64,000 nucleotides of DNA from Deltaproteobacteria bacterium (GTDB taxonomy: Bacteria > Desulfobacterota > GWC2-55-46). The stretch's first letter is position 1. Every line of letters starts with the position of its first letter. Below the pieces are notes generated by a model that saw only the letters and a list, made by a program, of their open reading frames with translations, made no database searches and was not told the DNA's origin. The DNA lies in assembly GCA_016182655.1 (NCBI GenBank), contig JACPGB010000001.1:1-64000 (forward strand), in the 5' to 3' direction. The translations under genes and the position numbers were made by a program. Below, piece after piece: positions 55,112-57,601 of this stretch.

Positions 55112-55783
55112 ATGAAGCTCACCTATCAGGGCCATTCGTGCTTTATAGTAGAAGGCAAGGGTCAATCCATAATAATAGACCCGTTCCTCAACGGCAACCC
55201 GCTCGCCAAAATAAAACCGAAGGATGTTACCGTTAACGCCGTACTCGTCACGCACGGCCACGGCGATCATTTGGGTGATGCCGTCGAGATATCGAAGAAG
55301 AACAACGCGCCGGTAATTGGCACCTTCGAGCTCATCAATTACTGTCTTGCAAAGGGGGCCACCGGACACGCCATGCACATCGGAGGCGGACACAATTTTC
55401 CGTTCGGAAGGGTGAAACTCACGATCGCTCACCACGGCTCATCGACCGACACCGCCGCTACCGGAAACCCGTGCGGGTTTCTCGTAACGATTGACGGTAA
55501 GACCATTTATCACGCAGGAGACACCGGGCTTTTCTCTGACATGGCCTTGATAGGAGAGACGAACTCAATCGACTGCGCGCTCGTCCCCATAGGCGACAAC
55601 TTCACGATGGGGGTGGAGGACGCCATAAGGGCCGTGGGGATGCTCAAACCCAAGATAGCCGTCCCCATGCATTACAACACATTCGATGTGATAAAACAGG
55701 ACCCGGAGGCGTTTAGAAAAGGGCTTGCGGGAAAGCCGGTCAGGGTGGAGATATTGAAGCCGGGAGAGACGCTGGAGGTCTGA
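55112..55783 (+). CDS. UPF0173 metal-dependent hydrolase (UlaG-like metallo-beta-lactamase fold)
   Basis: 223 residues. Metal ligands in VLVTHGHGDHLGDAVE (HxHxDH), HHGSSTD, HAGDTGLFSDM and the C-terminal MHYNTF histidine. The opening YQGHSCF is the UPF0173 pattern. The family acts on phosphodiesters or lactones, but the physiological substrate is unknown. ATG at 55112 has a GGAGGTAT ribosome binding site. Confidence 0.94.
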   Translation: MKLTYQGHSCFIVEGKGQSIIIDPFLNGNPLAKIKPKDVTVNAVLVTHGHGDHLGDAVEISKKNNAPVIGTFELINYCLAKGATGHAMHIGGGHNFPFGRVKLTIAHHGSSTDTAATGNPCGFLVTIDGKTIYHAGDTGLFSDMALIGETNSIDCALVPIGDNFTMGVEDAIRAVGMLKPKIAVPMHYNTFDVIKQDPEAFRKGLAGKPVRVEILKPGETLEV

Positions 55784-55911
55784 GGCGGGGGCGTTTAGGG
55801 TAATATTGCATTGACAACTGACACGCGCGGAAAAACGGATTTGTTGGGTTACGCTCCGCTAACCCGACCTACGGCTACCACCTTATAAACATCATCAAAA
55901 GAGGATTTTTA

Positions 55912-55939
55912 TTGATATTTTCTTCATTTAATGTATAAA
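55912..55939 (+). promoter_or_regulatory. Sigma70-type promoter of the AT-rich orphan gene
   Basis: TTGATA (55912-55917), 16-base spacer, TATAAA (55934-55939). The transcript start falls about 17 bases before the ATG, leaving room for the GAGG ribosome binding site. Confidence 0.55.
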
Positions 55940-55962
55940 AGATTAAAACCTTTGAGGTCTCT

Positions 55963-56880
55963 ATGAAAAACGCTTTCTGCTCCAGCTGTAATAGACAAAC
56001 GGGCTTTAAAAGAGCTTTAGGGTGGGGAACTTTTTTTGCATGTATCTTAACGGGGGGTCTTTGGCTTCTAACAATCCCTTTTTATCCCAAAAGGTGTGTC
56101 ATTTGTGCTAATAAAACCTCAAAGGAGAATAAAGAAAAAAAAGAAATTTCTTTCGAGAGAATTGGGAAAGTCCTGATCGGTTTCGCTATATTCATAGTCG
56201 CAATGACAATCATCAGCGGAATTAATCAGTTGTTCTCTAAATCTGAAAAACCTCAAGACAACCAGATATCGGCAAAATTACAATCTAAACGGAAAGCTGC
56301 CGTGGAGAAATTCCGCAAGGAATTTACTGAGAATAGGGCTAGCTTTATGGCCCAGTTAGATGCGTCTTATCAGAAAAAAGATTACAAGGGAGTTATTAGC
56401 AAAGCGAGACCTTACCTTTTCATTGAGGATAATGAGCTTAAGAGTATGTATAAGAAATCTGTTAAACAAGCTTTTCTCAAGTCATCTTTCTTTGGTGATT
56501 GGAGTAATGCAAGAAGAATCAGTAAATCAGGAAACATTCATTTGAAAATTTGGGGACCTTATTTAGAATATGCCAATGAGCAGACCGATATCGCCAAACA
56601 GACGTTGCTTCGAGATTCGTTACCTGAGCTTAATATAATGTATGATGAAATTTGGGAGAAGGAAGTTGATTACTTGCTTACAAGTGAGGAGAAAAGGCGT
56701 TATAGAGGCAAATTGGACCGAGCCAAATTGTATTGGAAAAATGGAGAAGTGCAAGCCTTTACAATAGAAGGCCTTTACGATAGGAATCCCGTAACTGGGG
56801 CACGGATTTCGTCTGAGTTCAGGATTAAAAGTATAAACAATAAAGATACCGTAATAAACAATCTAATCCAGTTTGAGTGA
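55963..56880 (+). CDS. Zinc-ribbon membrane protein of unknown function, AT-rich
   Basis: 305 residues. The N-terminus has two CxxC pairs, Cys6-Cys9 and Cys45-Cys48, separated by a hydrophobic segment (about 20-41, GWGTFFACILTGGLWLLTIPF in part), a layout like the LITAF-type zinc fold in which a membrane-embedded helix sits between the cysteine knuckles. A second transmembrane helix follows (about 67-87). The remaining 215 residues are charged and helical with no recognised domain. Codon use and AT content differ strongly from the neighbours, suggesting recent transfer. It stands alone between dispersed repeats. Confidence 0.75.
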   Translation: MKNAFCSSCNRQTGFKRALGWGTFFACILTGGLWLLTIPFYPKRCVICANKTSKENKEKKEISFERIGKVLIGFAIFIVAMTIISGINQLFSKSEKPQDNQISAKLQSKRKAAVEKFRKEFTENRASFMAQLDASYQKKDYKGVISKARPYLFIEDNELKSMYKKSVKQAFLKSSFFGDWSNARRISKSGNIHLKIWGPYLEYANEQTDIAKQTLLRDSLPELNIMYDEIWEKEVDYLLTSEEKRRYRGKLDRAKLYWKNGEVQAFTIEGLYDRNPVTGARISSEFRIKSINNKDTVINNLIQFE

Positions 56881-57009
56881 GGAAAAGTTTCAGATGAAAC
56901 TGTTAACGTCTTCAATATAGGTTCATGAGGGATTTTCCCTTTACTTTACGGCTATTGCTAACTAACCCCGACAATTCTCCTTCGAAAAACCTCAATACAC
57001 CCCTCCTAA

Positions 57010-57076
57010 CCTCCCCTTGTAAAGGGGAGGAATAAAAAAAATCCCCTCCTTTACAAGGAGGGGCCAGGGGAGGTAG
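57010..57076. repeat. Paired GC-rich hairpins
   Basis: CCTCCCCTT/AAGGGGAGG (57010-57030) and CCCCTCCTT/AAGGAGGGG (57043-57063) are separated by an A/T run. They lie in the gap after the AT-rich gene and resemble the other CCCTCC palindromes. Confidence 0.6.
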
Positions 57077-57102: not shown

Positions 57103-57138
57103 AACAAACGGCGGGACTCATCCGTCCCGCCGTTTGTT
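57103..57138 (-). terminator. Terminator-like hairpin overlapping the stop of the 154-residue protein gene
   Basis: A perfect 15-bp stem (AACAAACGGCGGGAC with GTCCCGCCGTTTGTT) and a 6-base loop. The outer A/T pairs supply a U-rich side in either direction, so it could stop transcripts from both strands. Confidence 0.6.
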
Positions 57139-57601
57139 ACGTATGCCACCCGTACTTCAAATCCCCCTTGAGGGCAAGCGTCATGTCCTTCGTGTTCCCC
57201 AGGTCTCCGTCAGGGTGGTAATAGATGGTAATATAGTCCCAGTGGAAGTTGTCGATATCGTACTCGGACGACTGCGTCACATACCGCGCCTTTCCGTCCG
57301 CGCCTGTCTTGAAGTGGTGCTCGTCGACCCCGAGGGGTTTCAGTTCCCTCGGCTCCTTCCTCTCCAACCAAACCGTATAGACCGAGCCGGGTTTGAGGCC
57401 GGATAAGTCGATGCCGATCGATCTCTGGCCATAGGTGGTGCCCATCCTCTCAATTACGGCCTCGCCACTTCCGCCCCCGCCTGTAGCGTCCTTCAGGGGA
57501 AGTATCTTCTTTGCCGGATAGTCGAAGCCGAGCGTTATTGCCAGGAGGATTAACGAAACCAACAGAAAAACCGGTTTTTTATGCGAACGCGCCAAAAACA
57601 T
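57137..57601 (-). CDS. Small exported protein of unknown function
   Basis: 154 residues. A signal peptide or anchor (9-30, KPVFLLVSLILLAITLGFDYP) precedes a compact soluble domain: VIERMGTTYGQRSIGIDLSGLKPGSVYTVWLERKE and then IDNFHWDYITIYYHPDGD. The pattern G...L-x-P-x-x-x-Y-TVWL resembles Ig-like adhesion or anti-sigma K/periplasmic superoxide-type folds, but I cannot assign it. AAAGGAGGG precedes the ATG. It is followed by a strong hairpin and preceded 23 bases away by the ElyC-like gene. Confidence 0.65.
   Translation of the reverse strand: MFLARSHKKPVFLLVSLILLAITLGFDYPAKKILPLKDATGGGGSGEAVIERMGTTYGQRSIGIDLSGLKPGSVYTVWLERKEPRELKPLGVDEHHFKTGADGKARYVTQSSEYDIDNFHWDYITIYYHPDGDLGNTKDMTLALKGDLKYGWHT

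Follow-up and report, generated by a model that had tools for sequence, protein, structure and literature searches.

An AT-rich single-gene insertion among conserved deltaproteobacterial genes encodes a protein that unites two separate sequence families

This work describes an open reading frame (ORF) and its surroundings in the window, i.e., the whole 64,000-nucleotide stretch of deltaproteobacterial DNA that was analysed. The locus comprises the following features (window positions).

55112-55783, forward strand: left-flanking gene for a metallo-beta-lactamase-fold protein, the last gene of a conserved run (Pfam, synteny)
55846-55874, forward strand: left dispersed repeat, GGGTTACGCTCCGCTAACCCGACCTACGG, with a 20-base core, GGGTTACGCTCCGCTAACCC, at 55846-55865
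55875-56986, no strand: AT-rich insertion, approximate extent from BLASTN against empty sites
55963-56880, forward strand: ORF under study, with an ATG start, encoding 305 amino acids plus a stop codon
55963-56112, forward strand: head, residues 1-50, with a CxxC, R17, G20, G22, T23, a hydrophobic stretch, and (P)FYPxRCxxC (alignments A4 and A6)
56161-56238, forward strand: second hydrophobic segment, about residues 67-92, a predicted membrane-crossing helix (Kyte-Doolittle up to 2.34 over 19 residues)
56254-56481, forward strand: predicted helical stalk, about residues 98-173, from model helices, most of it without aligned relatives
56455-56877, forward strand: C-domain, about residues 165-305, predicted mixed alpha/beta, with relatives that have signal-peptide-like N-termini
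56999-57074, no strand: right palindromic dispersed repeat pair, with a 21-base near-palindromic core at 57043-57063
57137-57601, reverse strand: right-flanking gene for a 154-amino-acid protein, followed by a DUF218 gene (synteny)

The ORF is a real gene, the ATG of which is preceded at a distance of 5 bases by GAGG (55954-55957), a plausible ribosome-binding site. Its base composition (GC 0.38, GC3 0.39) lies far below that of eight neighbouring genes (GC 0.53-0.60, GC3 0.65-0.84) in a window with an overall GC of 0.558, which confirms the AT-rich gene amid high-GC neighbours that was described in the initial annotation. The encoded protein contains cysteines at positions 6, 9, 27, 45, and 48 only, and Kyte-Doolittle values above 1.2 (19-residue windows) are reached in residues 18-42 and 61-94, the first of these stretches being enclosed by the pairs C6/C9 and C45/C48, as the same annotation had recognized. 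The strong promoter that it had also assigned to the gene was not borne out: the highest-scoring -35/-10-like pair upstream of the ORF, TTGATA-16-TATAAA at 55912-55939, matches at 10 of 12 positions, an unexceptional score that was also reached in 4 of 54 gene-body windows and, when the upstream sequence was shuffled by mononucleotides, in 96 of 1000 trials. This pair is absent from the output of the consensus promoter scan, which requires a T at the final -10 position.

The left-flanking gene closes a run of four, purM-purN-DUF523-MBL, in which the first two genes are presumably purM and purN and the other two were named by Pfam as 2-thiouracil desulfurase (DUF523) and metallo-beta-lactamase fold (MBL). 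The order of this run, followed by the genes for the 154-amino-acid protein and DUF218, is largely conserved among relatives. No Pfam match at 0.001 was obtained for the 154-amino-acid protein (57137-57601, reverse strand), the gene of which adjoins the DUF218 gene in all three same-genus genomes compared. Inspection of the locus in relatives revealed empty sites in all three same-genus genomes with an identifiable left flank (G001, G002, and G003), both flanking genes being present and the ORF absent; the left flank was not found in a further same-genus genome (G004). At the empty sites the flanking genes are separated by approximately 106 bases (G002), 360 bases (G001), and less than 200 bases (G003, where a run of N lies close to the end of the right-hand gene). 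By BLASTN, homology to the empty sites ends around position 55874 (G001) and restarts around 56987 (G003), and approximately 1.1 kb has thus been gained. The ends of the insertion are inexact, because G001 has some 170 bases of a different sequence between these points. The best direct and inverted repeats across the insertion measure 8 and 7 bases, respectively, and a Pfam scan that covered the ORF together with the four ORFs closest to it detected no transposase or integrase. A full-length match to the protein was found in 1 of 97 relative genomes, i.e., the genome of the window itself. The acquisition that had been proposed for this gene is thereby upheld by its absence from the syntenic site: an AT-rich segment of approximately 1.1 kb, with this one gene, has been inserted among conserved genes.

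Both repeats that border the insertion represent abundant dispersed palindromic families of the own genome. The left core gave 39 matches in this genome (at most 2 mismatches) and the right 21-base core gave 58, in which some sites are counted on both strands, with 0 matches for the reversed-pattern control in either case. G001 has both repeats at its empty site, and G003 has the right palindrome at its own; the repeats are therefore no sign of acquisition, and of the earlier statement on bordering dispersed repeats their presence holds and their interpretation does not. An apparent second, degenerate left repeat at the insert's right end was rejected, since 203 of 2000 shuffles scored equally.

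Separate homology searches with the two ends of the protein returned relatives for residues 1-50 and for the second half of residues 93-305. Residues 1-50 identified five loci in MAGs, four from deltaproteobacteria and one from Proteobacteria. In the window's phylum, a head profile of six rows matched 6 of 345 genomes, three of which were sources of profile rows (G276, G368, and the own genome) and three of which were new. Among the 97 relatives, nine genomes matched the head at E ≤ 0.1, with the own genome as the sole strong match and eight at E 0.008-0.094 that were not used. Small head proteins are encoded by open frames of 56-130 codons (loci L002, L003, L005, L006, L039, and L041), the head precedes a cysteine-rich C-terminal part in L004, L042, and L062, and in L040 it is followed by a different tail. 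L040:776-1450 and L042:1231-1653 form a tandem pair on one contig (C99 of genome G161), with diverged heads and unlike tails. In L005:4770-5159 and L006:4770-5159 the frame is open for about 77 codons upstream of the methionine that precedes the first CxxC, and because these upstream frames are alike the true start may lie further upstream. The 11 rows of alignment A4 share invariant residues C6, C9, R17, G20, G22, T23, G32, F40, Y41, R44, C45, and C48, and thus all four head cysteines are retained in every row. Over the head, every member scanned stays below the Pfam and NCBIfam cut-offs.

Heads were also encountered on viral contigs. The 11-row A4 profile detected five IMG/VR loci and a larger head profile recovered three of these five contigs; with the head as a single sequence no match was obtained in viral contigs. 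Two of the loci (L081 and L082) carry the same ORFs and one (L083) is truncated by a contig end. The head in L080 is surrounded, by eye, by replication-type genes, and L079:3001-3252 encodes an 84-amino-acid head protein with a second hydrophobic segment (by eye), directly before a phage-integrase gene. The head gene at L002:5001-5150 follows an ORF (L002:4397-4939) with a sub-cut-off match to Y1_Tnp, an IS200-like transposase (21.2 bits against 23), which we take to be of the REP-associated kind. For this Y1_Tnp-like gene, tblastn was negative at the other compared head loci, with the exception of L076, which is the L002 locus itself. In plasmids, a match of the head (H1, E 2) was rejected, as the annotated genes there run on the other strand, and L062 matched Salinibacter zinc-ribbon genes (E 5e-5) and, weakly, a Klebsiella sequence, through its C-terminal ribbons and not its head.

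The search with residues 93-305 matched 11 of 345 genomes at E ≤ 0.1, i.e., the own genome, four strong ones, and six with weak matches, which were set aside; the four strong genomes carry five C-domain loci, which match only the second half of the query. A C-domain profile matched 5 of 395 genomes, all of them already known and all of them sources of profile rows. In family f19, which includes G290, the full-length query matched 11 of 22 genomes, each match covering one end only: three genomes have a head and nine a C-domain, and the one that has both carries them on separate contigs. In total, 11 other C-domain proteins were collected, all in alignment A3, which are 28-36% identical to the window C-domain. 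Residues W197, D228, Y257, Q264, and E269 are invariant in this alignment. Each of the 11 has an N-terminal hydrophobic segment with an A-x-A-like site, a signal-peptide-like call made by a simple custom rule for these two elements and not by SignalP. In these relatives, of 152-165 or approximately 340 amino acids, the signal-peptide-like start replaces the head, membrane helix, and stalk of the window protein. Eight of the 11 are of the type of approximately 340 amino acids, one of them truncated by a contig end, and the longer ones have an extra C-terminal part. DUF2207 genes lie near this type at 6 of 8 loci and LemA genes at 5 of 8, contig ends limiting some; this neighbourhood was seen in L069, L072 (in which other ORFs intervene), L103, L104, L105, and L106, and the Pfam names were checked on the L069 copies only. 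These neighbours provide a possible functional hint for the longer C-domain proteins. None of the 5 (of 11) other C-domain proteins that were scanned reaches a Pfam or NCBIfam cut-off, and the C-domain had no match in viral contigs or plasmids. A second protein with both head and C-domain was absent from the full-length, head, C-domain, and f19 genome searches, and the fusion and the helices between its two ends were found only in the window protein. The designation as an orphan protein hence holds in that the fusion was found in no other protein and that an assigned family is lacking at cut-off, and it fails in that both ends have relatives.

Searching residues 64-171 against 297 genomes yielded, besides the protein itself, weak matches only (best E 0.0016 at 24% identity), and this middle segment had no plasmid match; in G075, a match to residues 102-182 (E 0.015) was dismissed as unrelated on visual inspection. 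The full-length query found no relative in genome contigs, viral contigs, plasmids, or phages, the best E in PHROGs (0.024) was not meaningful, and in phage searches the body appeared at E 0.5-4 and the L079 protein at 0.7-0.8 only. PDB searches gave a best E of 1 by sequence and no match by profile. A match to PF23241 (HAT repeat; E 0.0074, 16.8 bits against 33) was considered a coincidence of helical sequence. A structure model of residues 95-305 that was based on A3 (mean pLDDT 84.2, pTM 0.75) has helices at 98-137, 141-151, and 157-172, followed by a mixed alpha/beta domain at approximately 184-304; the helical body of 215 residues that had been proposed is thus retained for residues 98-172 and replaced for the remainder. 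AlphaFold modelling of the whole protein from its sequence alone gave a mean pLDDT of 45.7, and that model was not used. Foldseek gave 0 matches for the stalk and C-domain at E ≤ 0.001 in PDB and BFVD (viral models), and the best VIA-align result had a Z of 3.9, with an rmsd of 13.1 over 136 residues; START/NTF2-like and acetyltransferase rows had low scores and are not claimed. No function gains support from these fold searches, and the absence of a match does not show a new fold.

We consider the gene an acquired single-gene insertion that encodes a modular envelope protein composed of a knuckle head, one crossing helix, a stalk, and a periplasmic domain, a reading to which we assign a probability of roughly 0.55. 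Judged from sequence, two separate domain families are present and the C-domain relatives begin with signal-peptide-like starts. Zinc binding, topology, and a binding role of the C-domain are the predicted parts of this reading. Residues 1-50 would form a cytoplasm-facing zinc knuckle in which the two CxxC pairs are brought together, the hydrophobic stretch of the head dipping into the inner membrane without crossing it. Residues 67-92 (approximately) would provide the single membrane crossing and residues 98-173 a helical stalk, and residues 165-305 would fold into an alpha/beta domain in the periplasm, with some component of the envelope as its probable binding partner. The periplasmic position of the C-domain is proposed because its relatives look exported. 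If the four cysteines share one zinc, both pairs must lie on one side of the membrane, and the reducing cytoplasm is the likeliest side for cysteine pairs that share a zinc. A periplasmic C-domain combined with two cytoplasmic knuckles would rule out a membrane crossing by the first hydrophobic stretch.

As to its role, our likeliest guess is that mobile elements carry it as an accessory protein of the envelope, a guess that draws on distribution, base composition, and viral-contig heads only. In 3 of 10 relatives the G+C content of the gene is clearly below that of its flanks (gene/flank 0.30/0.65 in L045, 0.27/0.60 in L046, and 0.44/0.59 in L002), and in the other seven there is little contrast (0.37/0.45 in L044, 0.53/0.55 in L054, 0.56/0.61 in L047, 0.42/0.43 in L040, 0.46/0.41 in L042, 0.61/0.61 in L062, and 0.50/0.53 in L079). 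Because 7 of 10 relatives are this close to their flanks, neither domain is always foreign-looking and the case for a mobile-element role is weak; the small number of viral-contig heads and the absence of the C-domain from the viral contigs and plasmids searched also count against it. A bolder proposal, which we rate as a long shot, is that the head is a transferable LITAF-like in-plane zinc anchor of bacteria and their viruses that is put on varied working domains, the window head delivering a periplasmic domain to the inner membrane, e.g., to alter the envelope to the benefit or detriment of a phage or another element.

The charges that flank residues 67-92 (6 K+R and 4 D+E before, 6 K+R and 2 D+E after) do not favour an N-inside orientation and count against the proposed topology. 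They offer no argument for N-inside/C-outside over an arrangement in which the first hydrophobic stretch does cross and forms a hairpin with residues 67-92, as the presence of two hydrophobic segments would allow; the body would then be cytoplasmic and the cysteine pairs would lie on opposite sides of the membrane, without a shared zinc. The conservation of both CxxC pairs in 11 of 11 A4 rows, which suits one shared site, and the exported appearance of 11 of 11 other C-domain proteins make this arrangement unlikely. A chance fusion that is heading for decay and has no selected function would account for a fusion seen in one genome only, as a lone AT-rich insertion, and for departures from the family patterns at G49 of the head (A) and at positions 167 (V, mostly E) and 294 (K, mostly R) of the C-domain. 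Yet the frame has remained open over 305 codons behind its plausible ribosome-binding site, and four other nearly invariant head positions and 8 of 10 nearly invariant C-domain positions are kept, and we regard such a fusion as rather improbable.

A third alternative would place the head within the LITAF domain family proper. In both, two CxxC pairs flank a hydrophobic stretch of about 20 residues, and two of six heads gave a sub-cut-off match to PF10601 (zf-LITAF-like; best E 0.035). The window protein, however, scores 10.6 bits for residues 1-52 and 10.3 for residues 1-60 against a gathering score of 23.8, and hhalign against a bacterial PF10601 profile of two rows aligned only nine columns around one knuckle (probability 61). 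The spacing between the pairs is 35 residues in the window head versus 56 in two bacterial PF10601 proteins, and the head signature, GxGT...FYPxRCxxCG, is distinct from LITAF. Membership is consequently very improbable, and of the LITAF-like CxxC-helix-CxxC head in the initial annotation the shape is kept and the family assignment is not. Within the window's phylum, 2 of 198 genomes contain a PF10601 match above the cut-off of that family, and titles and abstracts on LITAF, queried with limited wordings, contained nothing on bacterial heads of the present kind.

The present analysis provides a first description of two small domain families that remain below Pfam and NCBIfam cut-offs in the members scanned, one of which is a short CxxC-hydrophobic-CxxC head that occurs in small proteins, on viral contigs, and in fusions to other domains. 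The C-terminal parts of L004 and L042 resemble the zinc ribbons DZR_2 (PF18912), UPF0547 (PF10571), and Zn_ribbon_3 (PF13248), below curated cut-offs, and the similar part of L062 matches PHROGs of unknown function; the window protein differs in lacking a C-terminal ribbon of these types, DZR_2 touching its residues 40-55 at 18.7 bits, below the curated cut-off. The ribbons of L042 (E 0.044) and L062 (E 0.0016) weakly match LmuB, and the window protein had no defence-model match at E ≤ 1 in PADLOC-DB 2.0.0. According to a study on LITAF (PMC5142333), the full-length protein resisted NMR and crystallography and its hydrophobic stretch was reported to adopt an in-plane position in the membrane; an in-plane membrane zinc knuckle is plausible for LITAF and is likewise proposed for the head. 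If the head proves to be in-plane and zinc-binding, it would give membrane anchors of the LITAF type a bacterial model of 50 residues.
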